Below, in pieces: positions 10,735-28,889 of a stretch of 39,368 nucleotides of DNA; the stretch's first letter is position 1; each line of letters starts with the position of its first letter. This DNA comes from a virus. The position numbers and the translations under genes are program-made. The DNA is taken from IMG/VR virus record IMGVR_UViG_3300018080_000324, positions 1 through 39,368 of that record. One strand, 5' to 3'. Below the pieces are notes generated by a model. It did not search any database. It was given only the letters and a program-made list of their open reading frames with translations, and was not told where the DNA came from.

Positions 10735-10810
10735 TTTTTAATAAATATTTTTTTTAATAAAAAAAACATATATATTTGTTGATGTAATTGATTAACAACT
10801 AAAAAAAAAC
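10735..10810 (+). promoter_or_regulatory. repeated cassette promoter, copy 1 (early region)
   Basis: T-tract/A-tract repeats (10733-10767) lead to TATATTTG at 10771-10778. The imperfect palindrome GTTGATGTAATTGATTAAC at 10778-10796 and CAACTAAAAA follow. The same block occurs at 25.2, 25.6 and 26.5 kb. The palindrome overlaps the likely RNA start, so it may be an operator for a repressor or activator. Confidence 0.65.
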
Positions 10811-10816
10811 AGACAC

Positions 10817-11059
10817 ATGAAAAAGATCTATAAATTAACTTGCCGGGACACAAAACTTCAATTCTATTGCGCAAAAGAGTATTACTCCAATAAAAAAGCT
10901 GCACATGAAAGCAAAAGGAGGTTGATTGAACTTCAAAAAAAGAAACGAGATATCCCTTATGTTGAATCACTAATTGACGGTTCTGTAGTGGTATCTGGAA
11001 GATGGGTAGTAAATCTTCAGGAAGTGCCTTTATGGAAAGACCCATCAGATTTTTTTTAA
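10817..11059 (+). CDS. small early protein, 80 aa
   Basis: This is the first gene of the early plus-strand region, directly behind the repeated promoter block and an A-rich leader. The product is basic, with a central Lys/Arg/Glu helix (about 24-46) and a beta-like C-terminal half (SLIDGSVVVSGRWVVNL). It has two cysteines. It is not recognised. Position suggests very early expression, perhaps host takeover or regulation. Confidence 0.6.
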   Translation: MKKIYKLTCRDTKLQFYCAKEYYSNKKAAHESKRRLIELQKKKRDIPYVESLIDGSVVVSGRWVVNLQEVPLWKDPSDFF

Positions 11060-11079
11060 ACCTTAAAAAAAACAAAGAC

Positions 11080-11193
11080 ATGAATCACTTTAATCCATAT
11101 TTACCACCAGAAGCACAAAATTGGCATTTAGAATATCCATCTGAACCATTGGATATTGAGCCAATCGATGTTGAAGAGAGACATGAGCGTTAA
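11080..11193 (+). CDS. small acidic protein, 37 aa
   Basis: This starts at ATG 11080 after a leader ending AACAAAGAC, like those of the neighbouring small genes. A longer frame beginning at 11002 would overlap the previous gene, so the short form is preferred. The product is acidic and Pro-rich (MNHFNPYLPPEAQ), ending EERHER. Function unknown. Confidence 0.5.
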   Translation: MNHFNPYLPPEAQNWHLEYPSEPLDIEPIDVEERHER

Positions 11194-11207: not shown

Positions 11208-11249
11208 GCTTGACCTGAGCAAGTCGCAAACTGCTCATATTTTTAAACT
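11208..11249 (+). promoter_or_regulatory. repeated structured leader, copy 1
   Basis: This stretch matches 26056-26098 almost base for base. GAGC-A-AGT pairs with ACT-GCTC as a 7-bp stem with one bulged A. The loop is CGCAA here and differs in the other copy. ATATTTTTAAACT follows, so it may be a terminator, an attenuator or a protein-binding hairpin in the 5' leader of the gene at 11266. Confidence 0.5.
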
Positions 11250-21880: not shown

Positions 21881-23152
21881 ATGAAAGGATTTGATCTAAG
21901 CAAATTAAGAATAAACCCTAACAACCCATATCCATTCTCTGGGAGTGATACAGAGTGGGCAGATTTTAAGAAGAAGCTGGACAGAGACCCTGAATTTATG
22001 GAAGCCAACAAAATAGCTTTTGATTCATCAAGAGATAATCTAATTATTGCTGGAAACAAAAGAGTTCAGGCATTAAGAGAATTGGGCTGGAAGATGATTC
22101 CAGACAAATACGTTATTGACTGCAAGGATTGGAGCGAAGAGAAGCGAGAGCGTTACATTTATGCTTCAAATTGGAATATAGGTCAATGGTCAATGGAGTT
22201 CACAAGCGAAGAACAAGCAGAAGAGTGGGGTATCACATTTGAAGAGGAAGAAGAGGTGCATCTGGAAGCGCAAGAAGATGACTATGTGCCTCCTGCGGAA
22301 ATACAAACGGATATTGTTAGAGGAGACTTGTTTGAGTTAAAAAAAGGTGATTTATGCCATAGGTTACTTTGTGGAGATTCAACAAGTGTTGATGATGTGG
22401 ACAAATTAATGAATAGCTATATAGCAAAAATGTCATTTACATCTCCTCCATACAATGCAGGTATATCAGAAAAATTATCAGGAAACACTCACTCAGGAGA
22501 TAATAAATATCAAAAATATAATGATAATCAAAGTAAAGATTCTTATTTAAAATTGTTGATAGAATTTGTGAACAATGCTCTCATTTATTCAAATTATTTG
22601 ATTTGTAATATACAAATGTTAGCAGGGAATAAGATTGCTTTAATTGAATTTTTAAATCAATATAAGAGCCAACTTATTGATATTGCAATATGGGATAAAG
22701 GTTATGGGGCACCAGCTATGGCAAAAAATGTTATGACTTCCTCATGGGAGTTTTTAATATTTATCTCTCCAGAGGACAATGCAAGTAAAGCAATTCCATA
22801 TGCAGAATTTAAAGGTACTGTAAATAATATTTACAGAAATCAAGGACAAAAACATAATGAATATTCAAAATATCACGCAGCTACCTTTCCTGTTCATCTT
22901 CCTGAGTTGATTTTGCAGTTTTCAAAAAAAGGAGATATTGTTTTAGATAGTTTTTTAGGAACTGCAACGACAATGGTCGCAGCGCATCAATTAGAGCGCA
23001 ACTGTTACGGAATGGAATTAGATGAGAAGTATTGTCAAATTGGGATAGACAGAATGTTGAAACTTGATGAGGATATACAGTTGTTTAGAAATGGAACAGA
23101 CGTTACTGAAAAATACAGAAAACGTTTATTAGCAGACGAAAAACAGACGTAA
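21881..23152 (+). CDS. ParB-like domain fused to DNA methyltransferase
   Basis: Of 423 residues, 1-125 form a ParB-like domain with LIIAGNKRVQALRELG at 54-69. An acidic linker (about 120-140) leads to an SAM-dependent methyltransferase. Motif IV is TSPPYN (187-192), and motif I, DSFLGTATT (356-364), is near the end, followed by ERNCYGMELDEKYC. Motif IV before motif I is the beta order. TSPPY is typical of enzymes that methylate the amino group of cytosine (N4) or adenine. It may protect phage DNA from host restriction. The middle third lacks GATC, unlike most of the genome, so the methyltransferase part may have been acquired. Confidence 0.88.
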   Translation: MKGFDLSKLRINPNNPYPFSGSDTEWADFKKKLDRDPEFMEANKIAFDSSRDNLIIAGNKRVQALRELGWKMIPDKYVIDCKDWSEEKRERYIYASNWNIGQWSMEFTSEEQAEEWGITFEEEEEVHLEAQEDDYVPPAEIQTDIVRGDLFELKKGDLCHRLLCGDSTSVDDVDKLMNSYIAKMSFTSPPYNAGISEKLSGNTHSGDNKYQKYNDNQSKDSYLKLLIEFVNNALIYSNYLICNIQMLAGNKIALIEFLNQYKSQLIDIAIWDKGYGAPAMAKNVMTSSWEFLIFISPEDNASKAIPYAEFKGTVNNIYRNQGQKHNEYSKYHAATFPVHLPELILQFSKKGDIVLDSFLGTATTMVAAHQLERNCYGMELDEKYCQIGIDRMLKLDEDIQLFRNGTDVTEKYRKRLLADEKQT

Positions 23153-23560
23153 ATGCCGGGTGGCAAAGGAAATATAAAGCCAGAAGATGGTAAACAATTT
23201 ACAAAAGATGACCCTCGCATAAACAGAGCAGGTCGAAAACCATCATTAAAGAAGCAACTTGAAAAGGTCGCTCTATCGGATGGGTGGCTGACGTTCGATA
23301 TAAAAGATGTTCAGATTTTAGAGGATAAGGTTAAAGTCAAAGTTCCTAAAGAAGAAGCAATGGCATTAAAGATGTTTCAGATTGCAATGGGCAAAAACCC
23401 GAATGCTGCTATGAATGCCATCAAGTTATATTTAGAGACATTTGATGGCAAGGCGAATCAGAACATAAAGATTGAAGATAAAAGACCAAGCAAGGAAGAC
23501 ATTCTTGCCGAGATCGAAGAAATTGACAAGATACTGAACGAAAGAGATGAACAGCAATGA
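23153..23560 (+). CDS. putative terminase small subunit
   Basis: This 135-residue protein begins one base after the methyltransferase stop and overlaps the large terminase start by 14 bases. It starts MPGGKGNIKPEDGKQFTK and carries DPRINRAGRKPSLKKQLEK, the pattern of the DUF5681-like leader seen in phage terminase small subunits and related packaging proteins. It has helical sequence afterwards (about 65-135). Its likely role is to recognise phage DNA for packaging. Confidence 0.7.
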   Translation: MPGGKGNIKPEDGKQFTKDDPRINRAGRKPSLKKQLEKVALSDGWLTFDIKDVQILEDKVKVKVPKEEAMALKMFQIAMGKNPNAAMNAIKLYLETFDGKANQNIKIEDKRPSKEDILAEIEEIDKILNERDEQQ

Positions 23561-25031
23561 TCTTGAACTGCGCAAACGACAACTCAAAAAGTGGCTCTTA
23601 TTAGACAAGTGCAAGACTGACTATTTCACATTTTTAAAGTATTTATTTCAGAATAAAGATGTCACTTGGAACTGGCATCATAAATATGCTTGCGGTGTCT
23701 TGCAAGAGTTTGTTGAAGGTAAGCATAGCAATCTGATGATCTTTATGCCTCCACAACATCAGAAGTCAACGATGTTGGTTGAATTTCTTGTTCCATATGC
23801 GCTTGGCATTAATCCAAATGAGCAGATCATTCTCACGATGTATAATCAGACGAAGGCTGCCGAGTACAACAGAAAGATTCAGCGTGTGATTACTGATGAG
23901 AAATACTCCGAGATATTTCCGGACACGAGATTGAATGATAGAAATGTTGTTGCTGATGCGAAAAGTCAGTATGTGAGAAACTCAGAGAAGTTTGAAGTGG
24001 TAAACAAGCAAGGCTTTCTATATGCTGTCGGTGTCTCTGGTGGTATTGCAGGAACTCCAGCAAAGATGGCACTCATGGATGATGTTATTAAGAATTATGA
24101 AGAGGCGTATTCACCTACATACAGGAATCGTGTTTACAATTGGTACACCGATGAACTTGAGGCAAGGTTACACAACGATTCACGAGTGGCATTCACGATC
24201 ACACGAAGGCACATGGATGATCTTGCAGGTCGATTGCTTGACAGAGATGGCACAGTTGAAGAGGGAGGCAAGTGGAAAGTTGTCACCATACCAGCAATAA
24301 AAGAAACGAACGAAAATGCTGATGATCCTCGCAAGATAGGACAAGCATTGTTTCCGCAATTGCACTCGCTTGAAAGACTTGAAGAAATAAGAGATAAGAA
24401 TCCAAGAACATTTGCTTCGTTGTATCAACAAAGACCTGCACCGACAGAAGGCGCAATCATCAAGCGTGAGTGGTTTAAAAGCTATGATAAAACGTCTGTA
24501 AACATCAATAATTTGCGATCTAAGACACGCATTTACATTGATGGTGCATATACATCAAATAAAGCGAATGATCCATCAGCAATCGTTGTATATGCGATGA
24601 TAAATCGAAAGGTACATATATTGAGATCGTTTCAAGAGTGGCTTGAAGCACCAGAACTTTTGAAGCGCATACAAGAGATCATTGCAACGTATGGCAATGA
24701 GAAATATACACGAGTGATGTTTGAACCAAAGGCATCCGGAAAGACACTCAAGCAGATCCTCGCTTCTTCTGGTATTCTTGCCAAAGAAGATAAAGCACCG
24801 ACAGAATCAAAGGTGACACGAGTTGAAGTCATCACACCATTCCTTGAACGTGGCGAGGTGTTATTGCCGAGCAATGAATCTGATCAAACATGGGTGAACG
24901 CATTCATTGACGAGTGCATTACGTTTCCGAGTGGCAGAGATGATCAAGTCGATTGCTTGAGTGCTATCTGTCGCATTGAACTTGCAACTGCTCCAGCAAT
25001 ACAATGGAATCAATCAACTATGCGAATATGA
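23547..25031 (+). CDS. terL: terminase large subunit
   Basis: This 494-residue protein is the ATPase-nuclease motor that packs DNA. Walker A is the variant MPPQHQKST (67-75), with Gln in place of the usual Gly before Lys. Walker B is MALMDD (174-179), and the segment FTITRRHMDDLAGRLL follows. The RNase H-like nuclease has IDGAYTSN with Asp332, EPKASGK (Glu393) and GRDDQVDCLSA with Asp465, Asp466 and Asp469. Length and order are standard. About 13 GATC sites lie in this gene. Confidence 0.95.
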   Translation: MNSNDLELRKRQLKKWLLLDKCKTDYFTFLKYLFQNKDVTWNWHHKYACGVLQEFVEGKHSNLMIFMPPQHQKSTMLVEFLVPYALGINPNEQIILTMYNQTKAAEYNRKIQRVITDEKYSEIFPDTRLNDRNVVADAKSQYVRNSEKFEVVNKQGFLYAVGVSGGIAGTPAKMALMDDVIKNYEEAYSPTYRNRVYNWYTDELEARLHNDSRVAFTITRRHMDDLAGRLLDRDGTVEEGGKWKVVTIPAIKETNENADDPRKIGQALFPQLHSLERLEEIRDKNPRTFASLYQQRPAPTEGAIIKREWFKSYDKTSVNINNLRSKTRIYIDGAYTSNKANDPSAIVVYAMINRKVHILRSFQEWLEAPELLKRIQEIIATYGNEKYTRVMFEPKASGKTLKQILASSGILAKEDKAPTESKVTRVEVITPFLERGEVLLPSNESDQTWVNAFIDECITFPSGRDDQVDCLSAICRIELATAPAIQWNQSTMRI

Positions 25032-25216
25032 TCAAATTATGCGCTTTATTATTCATTATAAGCTGTTCAGCGTGTTATCCTAAAACATACAAGGCAAAGC
25101 ATCATGACTTTGAGATCGTTGTTCTAAGAAAGCGAGGTGATGTCATTGAGGTTGATCACAATGGTGTGATCTATTGTCTTGACAAAAGAATCTTGAAAGA
25201 TTTTCACGAAATATGA
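25028..25216 (+). CDS. small lipoprotein-like secreted protein, 62 aa
   Basis: This starts at ATG 25028, overlapping the terminase stop (ATGA). An in-frame ATG at 25004 inside terminase is less likely. MIKLCALLFIISCSACYPKT is a short signal sequence with cysteines at about 13 and 16 that could be lipidated. The mature part is about 46 residues with charged strands (FEIVVLRKRGDVIEVDHNGV). It might be an outer-membrane spanin or an exclusion protein. Not recognised. Confidence 0.6.
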   Translation: MIKLCALLFIISCSACYPKTYKAKHHDFEIVVLRKRGDVIEVDHNGVIYCLDKRILKDFHEI

Positions 25217-25234
25217 TGCGATCTATTTTTTTCA

Positions 25235-25320
25235 TTTTTTTTATAAAAAAAGTATCAATTCTTTTTTTTTTATAAAAAAAACATATATATTCGTTTATGT
25301 AATTAATTAACAACTAAAAA
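25235..25320 (+). promoter_or_regulatory. repeated cassette promoter, copy 2
   Basis: Two T-tract/A-tract units flank AGTATCAATTC. TATATTCG (25286-25293) and the imperfect palindrome GTTTATGTAATTAATTAAC (25293-25311) follow, then CAACTAAAAA. It is nearly identical to 25613-25699. It stands just before the ATG at 25329. Confidence 0.65.
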
Positions 25321-25328
25321 CAAACATC

Positions 25329-25577
25329 ATGAAATTCGACAAACAAAAATTTGATTACCACGGAGGATACCTTACATACGAATTGAACTCAGGAGAAAGA
25401 AGCGTAGTCGTAGCGAGATTCAAGTATGGGGGCATGGGAGCTTTCAAGAGATTCTTAATCAAGAATTTTTCCGTAGAGGAGTATTTCAAGTTACTTGACA
25501 GCGGTTTAGCTCCCCTTGAGGTGTTAAAGACTAAAGGATACACGAAGCCCTTAGCTGCCAAGCAGCGTATTAAATAG
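25329..25577 (+). CDS. small cassette protein A, 82 aa
   Basis: Basic protein with alternating strands (HGGYLTYELNSGERSVVVAR) and two helices with KNFSVEEYFKLLDSGLAPLE. The last codons (KQRIK and stop) lie inside a 45-base repeat also found after the gene at 26117. It has its own promoter and terminator. Function unknown. It contains no GATC, unlike the flanking phage genes. Confidence 0.6.
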   Translation: MKFDKQKFDYHGGYLTYELNSGERSVVVARFKYGGMGAFKRFLIKNFSVEEYFKLLDSGLAPLEVLKTKGYTKPLAAKQRIK

Positions 25578-25607
25578 ATTGAGAAAGAGCCAGACATTGA
25601 TCTGGCT
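25563..25607 (+). repeat. 3' cassette repeat, copy 1
   Basis: A 45-base stretch beginning CAGCGTAT and ending at the terminator is repeated, with a few changes, at 26380-26423. In this copy it holds the last five codons of cassette gene A; in the other copy it is non-coding. A junction shared this way points to duplication or exchange of whole units. Confidence 0.65.
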
Positions 25608-25612
25608 TTTTT
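25588..25612 (+). terminator. terminator of cassette A
   Basis: AGCCAGA (25588-25594) pairs with TCTGGCT (25601-25607), loop CATTGA, followed by T. The same stem and loop recur at 26404. Confidence 0.85.
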
Positions 25613-25699
25613 ATTTTTTTTATAAAAAAAGTATTAATTCTTTTTTTTAATAAAAAAAACATATATATTCGTTGATGTAATTGATTAGCAACTAAAAAC
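25613..25699 (+). promoter_or_regulatory. repeated cassette promoter, copy 3
   Basis: Same T/A-tract arrangement as at 25235, with AGTATTAATTC, TATATTCG (25664-25671), the imperfect palindrome GTTGATGTAATTGATTAGC (25671-25689) and CAACTAAAAA. It lies before the ATG at 25708 and directly behind the previous terminator. Confidence 0.65.
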
Positions 25700-25707
25700 A
25701 CTAAGAC

Positions 25708-26046
25708 ATGAAAAATTCAAAAACAAAATTTCAAGTAACAGAAGAATTGATTGGAAAGTACATTAACTGCCACCTTTGGACTGATGTTTATCCTATTGGT
25801 AAAATTGTTGGAATAAAGGGCAAAACAAAAGTTTTAATACAACCAGTGGAGGCATCTGAAAACAAGACTAAAATGCATGTAGTTGTTGGTGGATATAGTG
25901 GGCACACAACTAATAATTATGCCCAGAGCTATGATTTTTTTGAGCGTGGGTTAATATTTGAAACTACGTTAAGCAATACAAGTATGAAGAACAAGCGTTG
26001 GAGAATAAGCGATAGACCACAGAACTTTTACGATTATAACTTTTAG
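25708..26046 (+). CDS. small cassette protein B, 112 aa
   Basis: Beta-rich protein. GKYINCHLWTDVYPIGKIVG, then KTKVLIQPVEAS and HVVVGGYSGHTTNN suggest a small barrel of SH3 or OB type. The C-terminal third is aromatic and basic (KRWRISDRPQNFYDYNF). It has its own promoter. No terminator is seen between it and the next gene except perhaps the structured leader at 26056. The family is not recognised. Confidence 0.6.
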   Translation: MKNSKTKFQVTEELIGKYINCHLWTDVYPIGKIVGIKGKTKVLIQPVEASENKTKMHVVVGGYSGHTTNNYAQSYDFFERGLIFETTLSNTSMKNKRWRISDRPQNFYDYNF

Positions 26047-26055
26047 AAATTAACC

Positions 26056-26098
26056 GCTTGACCTGAGCAAGTCTTGAAACTGCTCATATTTTTAAACT
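26056..26098 (+). promoter_or_regulatory. repeated structured leader, copy 2
   Basis: Nearly identical to 11208-11249. The bulged 7-bp hairpin GAGC-A-AGT / ACT-GCTC is kept, while the loop changes to CTTGAA and gains one base. ATATTTTTAAACT follows. It lies between the stop at 26046 and the ATG at 26117. The change in the loop but not in the stem suggests that the structure matters. Confidence 0.5.
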
Positions 26099-26116
26099 AA
26101 ACAAAAACAAACAGAC

Positions 26117-26377
26117 ATGAAAACTAAAAAATTGTATGAATCTAAAGCAGCTGCAAGAAATGAAGAAACATATGGCATTACAGCAAAATCTTGCATCTGC
26201 TGTAACAAACCAACGAATGAAGATTTCTTCGTTCATATGTCCACCGAGTGGGAGGTGATACCTGCTCTCGCAACAGACGAAATGTTGCAACAAGCAGGAA
26301 TAGAGTCACAAGGTTTATTTCCAATTGGTTCTTCGTGCGCAAAAAAAATGGGCGATAAATATATTATTTTAGCTTAA
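26117..26377 (+). CDS. small Cys-containing cassette protein C, 86 aa
   Basis: It has CICC at residues about 26-29 and a later Cys in IGSSCAKKMG (about 74), so a treble-clef-like metal site is possible. The pattern (CxxCC, then HMSTEWEVIPA, then FPIGSSCAKK) recalls small zinc proteins of Bacteroidota phages. It is the only cassette gene behind the structured leader instead of the palindrome promoter. Function unknown. Confidence 0.6.
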   Translation: MKTKKLYESKAAARNEETYGITAKSCICCNKPTNEDFFVHMSTEWEVIPALATDEMLQQAGIESQGLFPIGSSCAKKMGDKYIILA

Positions 26378-26379
26378 AA

Positions 26380-26423
26380 CAGCGTATCAGATAGATTAGG
26401 AAGAGCCAGACATTGATCTGGCT
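26380..26423 (+). repeat. 3' cassette repeat, copy 2
   Basis: It matches 25563-25607 from CAGCGTAT to the terminator stem, with a few base changes and one deletion. Here it is non-coding and follows the stop of cassette gene C by 2 bases. Confidence 0.65.
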
Positions 26424-26429
26424 TTCTTT
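26404..26429 (+). terminator. terminator of cassette C
   Basis: AGCCAGA-CATTGA-TCTGGCT, the same hairpin as at 25588, followed by a T-rich tract. Confidence 0.85.
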
Positions 26430-26516
26430 ATGTTTTTTTTATAAAAAAACTGTGATTTATTTTTTAATTCAAAATGTTGTTGTATATTAGCTGATGTAAT
26501 TGATTAGCAACTAAAA
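26430..26516 (+). promoter_or_regulatory. repeated cassette promoter, copy 4
   Basis: The T/A tract is followed by a diverged stretch, then TATATTAG (26483-26490), the imperfect palindrome GCTGATGTAATTGATTAGC (26490-26508) and CAACTAAAAA. The outer pair T-A of copy 1 is C-G here, keeping the symmetry. It precedes the ATG at 26526. Confidence 0.6.
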
Positions 26517-26525
26517 AAAACAAAC

Positions 26526-26789
26526 ATGAAAAATTTTACAACAGCAGATATTAAAAAATTTGGAAAAGTAACAAAAATCGCGTCTGGGTACTATCAATAC
26601 AATGGCAAAAATTTTACGCTTGATATTGAGAAGGAAACATATGATACAACATACTGGTCTTTACAATACACAGGCGATAATGAAAAACTTTTAGAAGATA
26701 TTTATGGTTGGAACCAATATGAAACAAAAAAGGAAGCAGTATGGGCGGCACGTTGCATGGATTTTAAAATTGAAAATAATATGCTATAA
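26526..26789 (+). CDS. small cassette protein D, 87 aa
   Basis: Starts MKNFTTADIKKFGKVTKIAS. The middle is beta-like and aromatic (GYYQYNGKNFTLDIEKE, YWSLQYTGDNEKLLEDIYGW), and the end is a helix with AVWAARCMDF. It has its own promoter and terminator. Function unknown. No GATC within it. Confidence 0.6.
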   Translation: MKNFTTADIKKFGKVTKIASGYYQYNGKNFTLDIEKETYDTTYWSLQYTGDNEKLLEDIYGWNQYETKKEAVWAARCMDFKIENNML

Positions 26790-26816
26790 TAATTTTTCAT
26801 AGTTTTTAGTTTTTGA

Positions 26817-26848
26817 GAGTCAGATCATTTGATCTGGCTCTTTTTTTT
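26817..26848 (+). terminator. terminator of cassette D
   Basis: GAGTCAGATC and GATCTGGCTC form a 10-bp stem with one G-T pair around ATTT, followed by eight T. It belongs to the same sequence family as the terminators at 25588, 26404 and 7928. Confidence 0.9.
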
Positions 26849-26911
26849 ACACAAGCAAATCATTTACGCATGATCAATTTTGATTCTTTTGATGTCCATA
26901 TTAAAACAATA

Positions 26912-26948
26912 AAGTCATTGGAAAAGATTGATAAATTAGTCATCATTG
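26912..26948 (+). promoter_or_regulatory. candidate late promoter, copy 2
   Basis: AAGTCATTG (26912-26920) with GGAAA after it, as in copy 1, and CATCATTG (26941-26948) at exactly 20 bases. The portal ATG is at 26955, so the RNA would have almost no leader. The box fits TAnnTTTG weakly. Confidence 0.4.
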
Positions 26949-26954
26949 CATGAT

Positions 26955-28889
26955 ATGGAAACGCTCAACGAACAAGAGATATTAGATTTTGTATTTCAGT
27001 CGCTGACAGTCAGTCAGTTTCATTCTCATTACGCTAAGACTGTTGAAATTGCTGATTATTGGAGGTCTATAATCTCTGGAGAAAATCAAGAATCAATTAT
27101 CTTGAAAAAAAGAGCAAATGACACAAATGCTCAGAAGGAAGAATCAGTCAGATTATTCAACACACACACACCATATCTCACAAATCGTTTAAAGTCTGTT
27201 TTTAAGAAGGTAGACAAGACGAAGCGTGTCAACAAGGTACTTGCACCAATTGAACAAGAAAGCGTCTCAGATCAAGCGTGGGCATCATTCTCGCAAAGAT
27301 TAAGAATGTTCTATCAAGAAGAATCGCTTGATGATTATTTGAATACGAGACTGATTGATTATGCAACTACTGATCCGAACGCATACTTGCTGATTGACTT
27401 TTTTCCTTTTGATAATGCAAGAGAGTTTCCTGTCACATATCCAATGATCTTTTCATCAGCAGATACCATCTTGAAAGGTTCTGATCATCTTGGTTTGCAG
27501 TTCATTTGTTTCCGAAAACCAATAAAGAGATCAGCAAACGCACCTGAGTCATATAAGCAGACTTTTGATTCATCAAAGACGGACATACAAAAGCAGTTGT
27601 ATGTTTATTATGTCTATACTCGAAACAACAGTTATGAGATCATTGTTGAAGATGTCGCAATGGTTTCAGAGTATGATGTGAGCAATTCTGAACTGAGAAC
27701 TGAAACATATTCCACAGCAGAAGGCAAGACAAATTCAGTATCATTTTATTATTCTTCAGGAGTTCATAATAGTGGCAATGTACCTGCCATAAGTCTGGGA
27801 TATGTCAAGGATTTATCCGCTAACTATGACATAAATGAAAGCATTTACAGACCAGCGAAGGAGGTCTTGAATGAGCATTGCGAGAAGAAGTCAAAACTTG
27901 ACAATCAGATGGCATTGTTTGGCTTTATTCGTGCTTACTTTTACACGCAGCGTTGCAGTTACAGAGACTCTGATGGAAACTATTGTACGAATGGTTACAT
28001 AAACGATCATGTCTGTCCATCATGCGATGGAACAGCAGTTGTAAGCGGTGAGAAACAATCACGCATCAGTCGTAATGAGTTTGAGATCACAGAGGTTGAG
28101 ATTCCATTGCCGACAAGCGGTGACAATGGTGAGATTCTTGATCTTTCACGATTGGTTCACATGGTCGAGATACCAGAAAACGTTTTCAAAATGTATCAAG
28201 ATCAAGTTGATCATTTGGCAAAGCTGACATCACTTGCCTTGTTCAACACCAATATCTTTGACAAGTACAACAACGAAAGCGGAGCGGAAACAGCCACAGG
28301 CATCAGAGAACTTGTTCAAAGCAAGAACAATGTGATTCATGAGTATGCAGAGCATAAGGCGAAGATATGGCGTTTCATTGTCGATCAGATGCTGCATTAT
28401 TTTAATCTGCGAGGCAAGGTGAACAGAAACATGGTCTTTGATGAAGATTTAGTTCCTCTAAGTGACGAGCAGATCATATCGCTAATAAGTCAAGGTAAGA
28501 CTGCAAATGTTTCGATGGAATACATCAGAAATCTGGAGTCTGACTTGATGGCTATGAAGTACAAAGACAACGATGATGAGTTGCAATGGTTCTCGCAGAA
28601 AAACAAGTGGAAGCCTTTCTTCAATAAGTCAGAAAACGAAGTGTTGTCAGCATTGTCGATGCTCCCGGTAGATCATAGCAAGAAGATTTTGTGGCTATTT
28701 TTTGAGGATATATTCAATGAGATAAGAAGTCAAAGCATCTTGCAAGGCGTTGAAGGTGAATATCAGATTCCTTTCCATTACCTTAATTACAATGAGCAGA
28801 AAGATGTCATCAGATATTATGTCGCAATCTATCGTGCGCAGCTTGAAAGCGAAGAAGTCATTGATTTAGATGATGATATTGATGAATAA
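26955..28889 (+). CDS. portal protein with inserted Cys cluster
   Basis: I start this at ATG 26955; the frame also has an upstream TTG at 26946. The 644-residue product has the size, acidic helical layout and order (terminase, portal, F-like protein) of the dodecameric portal through which DNA enters the capsid. Near the middle it holds Cys334, Cys344, Cys354 and Cys357 (spacing C-x9-C-x9-C-x2-C), a zinc-ribbon-like insertion that is not typical for portals. Residues after about 480 are helical and acidic, ending LDDDIDE. Confidence 0.85.
   Translation: METLNEQEILDFVFQSLTVSQFHSHYAKTVEIADYWRSIISGENQESIILKKRANDTNAQKEESVRLFNTHTPYLTNRLKSVFKKVDKTKRVNKVLAPIEQESVSDQAWASFSQRLRMFYQEESLDDYLNTRLIDYATTDPNAYLLIDFFPFDNAREFPVTYPMIFSSADTILKGSDHLGLQFICFRKPIKRSANAPESYKQTFDSSKTDIQKQLYVYYVYTRNNSYEIIVEDVAMVSEYDVSNSELRTETYSTAEGKTNSVSFYYSSGVHNSGNVPAISLGYVKDLSANYDINESIYRPAKEVLNEHCEKKSKLDNQMALFGFIRAYFYTQRCSYRDSDGNYCTNGYINDHVCPSCDGTAVVSGEKQSRISRNEFEITEVEIPLPTSGDNGEILDLSRLVHMVEIPENVFKMYQDQVDHLAKLTSLALFNTNIFDKYNNESGAETATGIRELVQSKNNVIHEYAEHKAKIWRFIVDQMLHYFNLRGKVNRNMVFDEDLVPLSDEQIISLISQGKTANVSMEYIRNLESDLMAMKYKDNDDELQWFSQKNKWKPFFNKSENEVLSALSMLPVDHSKKILWLFFEDIFNEIRSQSILQGVEGEYQIPFHYLNYNEQKDVIRYYVAIYRAQLESEEVIDLDDDIDE

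Follow-up and report, generated by a model that had tools for sequence, protein, structure and literature searches.

How do small genes come to be inserted between the essential late genes of a phage, and what allows them to be replaced one unit at a time? This question is raised by a stretch of viral DNA, hereafter the window, which is a complete IMG/VR virus record of 39,368 bases. Four small open reading frames (ORFs) of 82, 112, 86, and 87 aa lie there, as an earlier note on the sequence had claimed, between the genes for the terminase large subunit and the portal protein. The note viewed the interval as a slot in which units of one gene each are exchanged through shared 5' and 3' ends. 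Our comparison with related phages points the same way, and also draws attention to a 28-nt RNA pseudoknot that closes one of the units and recurs in phages of very different hosts.

Layout of the terminase-portal interval

The elements of the interval, with its flanks, are as follows.

23547..25031, + strand: terminase large subunit, left flank of the slot (PHROG 38, E = 2e-96; Pfam Terminase_6N/6C)
25004..25216, + strand: small lipoprotein-like ORF (70 aa, lipobox-like ISCSAC), kept with the left flank in relatives
25226..25328, + strand: candidate promoter-leader block 1, with the -7-like box TATATTCG at 25286-25293 and the leader ATGTAATTAATTAACAACTAAAAA
25329..25577, + strand: cargo ORF1, 82 aa (phrog_22119; relatives in the Sinorhizobium phage phiM12 group)
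25562..25612, + strand: shared 3' block, made of the last codons of ORF1 and the terminator; near-same sequence behind the ORF3 homologue of contig L009
25583..25612, + strand: intrinsic terminator 1 (fold z -5.1)
25605..25707, + strand: candidate promoter-leader block 2, with the -7-like box TATATTCG at 25664-25671
25708..26046, + strand: cargo ORF2, 112 aa (phrog_19789, 4e-7)
26059..26086, + strand: H-type RNA pseudoknot TGACCTGAGCAAGTCTTGAAACTGCTCA, followed by TATTTTTA, 12 nt past the ORF2 stop
26117..26377, + strand: cargo ORF3, 86 aa, Cys-containing; its homologue in L009 (95% identity) stands behind a different gene
26379..26431, + strand: non-coding copy of the shared 3' block, including terminator 2 (sequence repeat; fold z -3.2)
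26424..26525, + strand: candidate promoter-leader block 3, with the -7-like box TATATTAG at 26483-26490
26526..26789, + strand: cargo ORF4, 87 aa; another ORF takes its place in L009
26815..26846, + strand: terminator 3, closing element of the slot (fold z -5.9)
26946..28889, + strand: portal protein, right flank, with the ATG probably at 26955 (PHROG 7376, E = 1e-13; 99% identity in L007/L015)

The lipoprotein-like ORF at 25004-25216 overlaps the end of the terminase gene, and its product may serve in lysis or at the surface.

Shared 5' and 3' ends of the units

ORFs 1, 2, and 4 are each preceded by a block composed of an A/T-rich stretch, a TATATTCG or TATATTAG box, and the conserved leader GATGTAATTGATTARCAACTAAAAA. 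The blocks had been described as near-identical, which holds for blocks 1 and 2 (93% over 60 nt) but not for block 3 (72%), where the leader is common and the upstream part more divergent. ORF3 has no promoter block, and the RNA pseudoknot stands before it instead. A fourth copy of the promoter-leader lies outside the slot, at 10748-10824.

Promoters of Bacteroidota (sigma-ABfr) have the consensus TAnnTTTG at -7 and TTTG at -33. The -7 boxes found in relatives (TATGTTTG, TACATTTG, and TATATTTG) fit TAnnTTTG, as does the copy of the window at 10771, whereas the three slot copies (TATATTCG, TATATTCG, and TATATTAG) are each one base off, and the -33 region, where TTTG is expected ~19-21 nt off, holds a T-rich stretch with no clear TTTG. 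Judging from this sequence match, we regard the slot promoters as candidate Bacteroidota-type promoters. A scan of the region for sigma-70 promoters gave matches no more frequent than in shuffles. Every leader copy contains ATGTAA, a start codon with a stop codon at once behind it (10782, 25297, 25675, and 26494).

On the 3' side, the three terminators, which follow ORFs 1, 3, and 4, indeed form one sequence family, and their folds beat all shuffles; terminator-like sites in the region number 9, against 1.3 expected. The 3' repeat, put at 45 bases in the earlier note, extends over ~50 nt; it ends ORF1, supplying its last codons and its terminator, and forms the non-coding tail behind ORF3. Over ~50 bases, the ORF3 tail of L009 is closer to the ORF1 tail of the window than to the window's own ORF3 tail.

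Exchange of cargo in relatives

The earlier note had proposed that the terminase-portal interval be compared in related phages. Relatives were retrieved by terminase and portal searches, and the comparison draws on only three arrangements of the slot, all on contigs from few metagenomes, and several of these contigs end inside it. L007 and L015, whose terminase and portal proteins are 95% and 99% identical to those of the window, carry new cargo, namely, four other genes (68, 66, 65, and 93 aa); a single promoter is present there, and no terminator was recognised. L009 carries a re-shuffled set, in which the 66-aa gene of L007 stands right after the promoter and is followed by ORF3 (95% identical), the terminator tail, promoter 3, and a new gene in place of ORF4. 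Hence, the same gene has different neighbours, and the same tail follows different genes. The similarity of the relatives' DNA to that of the window is lost at 25334, at most 6 bases from the start codon behind promoter 1, and comes back at 26905, 41 bases before the portal gene. The slot DNA had no match in a search against the phage collection.

The fourth promoter-leader block marks the start of a second slot.

10739..10816, + strand: candidate promoter-leader block 4, with TATATTTG at 10771-10778
10817..11056, + strand: cargo ORF of the second slot, 80 aa; another ORF in L018/L019 and in L021
11211..11237, + strand: second pseudoknot, TGACCTGAGCAAGTCGCAAACTGCTCA, 17 nt past a small ORF ending DVEERHER

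In L018, L019, and L021, similarity is lost at 10823, the start codon, and comes back at the next gene (11062-11067), with other cargo in between. Furthermore, the otherwise divergent contigs L034 and L035 have an island of ~145 bp, 88-93% identical, which comprises one small ORF and the pseudoknot and ends ~10 nt past the latter, and so the pseudoknot also travels with genes.

The proposal of exchange through shared ends is borne out: the flanks stay while the cargo changes, breakpoints fall on the common 5' block and 3' ends, and a second slot uses the same block. Tandem duplication inside one genome could produce the promoter and tail repeats, and in ordinary phage mosaicism, driven by illegitimate recombination, such repeats would be local duplications with no role in exchange. 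However, the breakpoints match the leader or the start codon in two slots and in several relatives, and one tail is common to different genes in different phages, and we consider mosaicism of this kind an unlikely explanation. We favour the reading of the terminase-portal interval as a moron-type exchange slot of units with a shared promoter-leader and with terminator or pseudoknot 3' ends, the pseudoknot serving as a 3'-end module, and hold this reading with good confidence. Each unit would have the shared Bacteroidota-type promoter-leader on its 5' side and one of two portable types of 3' end, either a hairpin terminator of the family or the 28-nt H-type pseudoknot, and homologous recombination in the shared ends would swap the body of the gene, beginning at its start codon.

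A moron is a single gene, equipped with a promoter and a terminator of its own, that has been inserted between late genes. As with the morons of lambdoid and other phages, the slot holds promoter/terminator gene units between essential late genes that are absent or different in relatives; the inserted genes differ in the close relatives L007, L015, and L009, and own promoters and terminators are recognisable in the sequence. Unlike morons, the slot has several units in a row, with the common promoter-leader and 3' ends as exchange joints, one of its units ends in a pseudoknot, and its promoter type is Bacteroidota-like. The slot is a clear case in which phage genes are swapped as units via common beginnings and ends, and comparison with relatives exposes the joints.

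The cargo proteins

What the exchanged genes do is less apparent from their homologues. The named phages contain distant relatives of ORF1, with no assigned function, and no homologue of ORF2, ORF3, or ORF4 was found in them; in the scan of viral contigs, ORF3 was recovered in L009 only and ORF2 had no relative. The single-sequence structure predictions of ORF2 and ORF4 (pLDDT 53 and 47) were too poor for a fold search. The note had suggested anti-defence or exclusion genes, and small size and high turnover, both displayed by the cargo, are typical of such genes in phage accessory loci. On the other hand, the cargo has no Pfam or PADLOC match, the PADLOC result being a weak negative since its models describe defence and not anti-defence; its PHROG matches are only to families of unknown function, none of them characterised, and no usable fold is at hand. 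An anti-defence or superinfection-exclusion role, left without backing by these searches, is therefore a doubtful assignment; the cargo genes are likely candidates for accessory host-interaction functions more broadly.

The absence of GATC from the cargo, which the earlier note had pointed out, carries little weight: when synonymous codons are shuffled, ~21% of the shuffles likewise leave the four ORFs with no GATC (mean, 1.3; P ~0.2), and GATC occurs in all three slot terminators. The longest GATC-free stretch of the genome is elsewhere, at 21893-23512 (1,619 bp), over the methyltransferase gene, with 1 GATC in the gene against ~4 expected. The DNA methyltransferase region is also a second hypervariable interval, window positions 22242-23125 being replaced by ~2.8 kb of other sequence in L007 (806-3648).

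A 28-nt pseudoknot in phages

The junction between ORF2 and ORF3, CTTGACCTGAGCAAGTCTTGAAACTGCTCATATTTTTAAAC, is found again at 11,210 and in L007. Its 28-nt consensus is NGAC-C-TGAGYA-A-GTCN-(1-5)AAAC-TGCTCA, in which NGAC/GTCN forms helix 1 (4 bp), C is loop 1, TGAGYA/TGCTCA forms helix 2 (6 bp), one base lies between the helices, and the third loop consists of 1-5 bases plus AAAC. A structure descriptor was run on 1.55 Mb of fetched DNA and gave 208 hits, compared with a single one in a first-order Markov control; this descriptor overlooks variants, so that counts of the pseudoknot are lower bounds.

The two interleaved H-type helices are backed by covariation. In 70 distinct copies, 98.3% of the cells are paired and 8 of the 10 pairs vary on both sides (4/4 in helix 1 and 4/6 in helix 2), and the covariation score is 0.515, compared to 0.189 for shuffled copies and at most 0.08 when the partners are slid. 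Because the descriptor demands pairing, the only unbiased test of the structure is a pattern that leaves some pairs free: the outer pair was then Watson-Crick in 64 of 103 cases, against 29 expected (maximum of 47 in 5000 shuffles), and opposite G the free base was C or T in 103/103. The alternative fold, a simple hairpin, lacks strong stability.

The exact pattern matched 34 viral contigs, and a slightly relaxed one at least 120. A 32-base query retrieved 52 phage records at a loose E-value, the best of which are clear: Lactobacillus prophage Lj771, phages KC5a and phig1e, Staphylococcus phage StB12, and Anoxybacillus phage A403; cyanophages and crAss-like phages are among the weaker matches. 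In the best phage matches, the site carries no annotated feature. Several phage records have three to six copies. In one scan of 85,000 bacterial and archaeal genomes, only 23 stretches with the pseudoknot were found, spread over many phyla.

No Rfam 15 family covers the pseudoknot, at either the gathering score or a permissive E-value, and literature searches by concept and by sequence returned no description of it; "undescribed" is provisional, given that the survey of Fremin et al. 2023, which reportedly lists candidate structured RNAs in phages, could include the motif. The preQ1-I riboswitch, the T4 gene 32 leader, the retroviral and luteoviral recoding pseudoknots, and ToxI are likewise compact pseudoknots, built of two short helices and a third loop rich in A. 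The phage element differs from them in its C loop, its AAAC loop, and its TGAGYA/TGCTCA helix, in its location behind the stops of unrelated genes, in occurring as single dispersed copies and not as tandem repeats, and in having no Rfam match. A self-cleaving ribozyme and a ToxI-type antitoxin RNA were set aside, as the conserved bases and the single dispersed copies do not fit.

Two minor observations concern the surroundings and the variation of the element. A second recurrent hairpin, CTGCACCCC-TTCATCGGGGAGTCGCAG, occurs just 5' of the pseudoknot in L020, L023, L064, L091, L139, and L149, sometimes before a nuclease-like gene (VVDGDTI), and L096 contains at 11099-11135 a divergent pseudoknot-like copy, AGTCTTGGAACATGACTTAAAACTGTTCTTA, which begins a few bases from the 3' end of a tRNA-Met gene.

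Position and possible action of the pseudoknot

Only 2 of 169 distinct copies fall inside a sense ORF of at least 150 codons. With ORFs, and hence stop and start distances, as called by a simple ORF caller, the distance from the upstream stop to the pseudoknot peaks at 5-6 nt (28/103 non-redundant upstream genes) and is 12 nt or less in about half, and the gap before the next start varies broadly (median, 50 nt); in phig1e, the pseudoknot stands 3 nt past the annotated stop. The genes before and after it belong to many unrelated families. The proximity to stops and the unrelated neighbours point to an action at the 3' end of the preceding gene rather than to the regulation of one kind of downstream gene, and we propose that the pseudoknot is probably a portable transcript 3'-end module. 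Some copies adjoin tRNA genes, and some stand just 5' of tRNA, scaffold, or other genes, for which the pseudoknot may have a 5' role; scaffold or coat genes follow shortly in Lj771, phig1e, StB12, and A403.

The eight bases 3' of the pseudoknot are poor in G (0.07) and rich in T (0.41); the T fraction reaches 0.40-0.50 at positions 3-8 past the 3' strand of the helix and is at background at position 9, with G near zero. A U-tract (at least 5 T in eight) is present in 46/162 copies, including those of the window, versus 3-5 in control windows, while ~70% of the copies have an A/C-rich, G-poor stretch instead.

The T rise in register with the helix, the U-tracts in the phage group of the window, and the tight spacing to upstream stops are what would be expected of a pseudoknot-type intrinsic terminator or attenuator, in which the stacked helices (4 + 6 bp) and the U-tract make RNA polymerase pause or release. 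Some copies thus resemble intrinsic terminators, from which the element nevertheless differs in being a pseudoknot and not a hairpin. Since most copies lack a U-tract, termination cannot be the common function, and a full stop in the middle of the head operon, before the scaffold genes of Lj771, phig1e, and StB12, would be harmful unless partial; as a general account, we view termination as tentative. It is somewhat easier to envisage, though still short of an even chance, that the pseudoknot marks a 3' stabilising or processing boundary: once the G-poor single strand behind it has been cleaved, 3'-to-5' exonucleases would be halted there, and the preceding gene would have a stability of its own. 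The location 5-12 nt past stops and beside tRNA genes, the G-poor stretch across groups, and the indifference to the identity of the preceding gene agree with this, as do the recurrent antisense spacers described below, which suggest that the transcript is present in infected cells; yet a short pseudoknot alone may be too weak, and copies upstream of tRNA genes are left unexplained. The H-type geometry and the frequent spacer of 5-8 nt past the stop also resemble stimulators of recoding, that is, of stop-codon readthrough or -1 frameshifting of the preceding gene. In the window copy, which we examined in this respect, no open frame extends past the ORF2 stop, the frame hitting TGA four codons on, inside the pseudoknot; moreover, copies adjoin tRNA genes and the spacing is often >10 nt, and recoding appears very improbable.

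Our current working hypothesis is that the preceding gene's transcript is what the pseudoknot acts on, in the manner of a compact 3'-end module. In the phage group of the window, with its U-tract, it would most likely be a weak terminator or attenuator, and in other phages more likely a 3' stabilising or processing boundary within a polycistronic mRNA.

CRISPR spacers matching the pseudoknot

Three of the matches in bacterial and archaeal genomes are CRISPR spacers in an Ignavibacteria chromosome, CP054675.1 (L178/L194). Its array has 140 spacers (138 distinct), five of which match the pseudoknot in one orientation and at different offsets. Among the neighbours of the array are cas10/csm1, csm2, RAMP proteins, csm4, cas6, cas1, and a Card1-type nuclease, which correspond to type III-A. 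Assuming the reading direction usual for this repeat type, as judged from the ATTGAGAC end, crRNAs from the array would be antisense to the pseudoknot, as RNA targeting needs. Acquisition of spacers from RNA by an RT-Cas1 was considered and discarded: a reverse transcriptase domain is absent from the neighbouring Cas1, and the single orientation is for this reason better ascribed to type III RNA targeting. The spacers support transcription of the pseudoknot in phages, independently of the sequence statistics.

Whether all these properties belong to one family is a balanced question, and we give an even chance to the view that the element represents an undescribed 28-nt pseudoknot family of tailed phages of many phyla, often multicopy, that functions as a portable 3'-end module and gene-exchange joint and is a recurrent target of type III CRISPR. 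Its conservation just behind stop codons in phages whose hosts include Bacteroidota, Bacillota, and cyanobacteria suggests that phage transcripts can be delimited by a general means across very different hosts. The pseudoknot is short enough for direct reporter tests, and its genomic copies could serve as ready targets when RNA is probed or the choice of spacers by type III systems is studied. Among the other spacers of the Ignavibacteria array, several look like transcript hairpins, for instance a recurring CCCTTCGGAAGGCGG...GGGGTCTGTTTAGATAAAC, as if structured or end regions were favoured.
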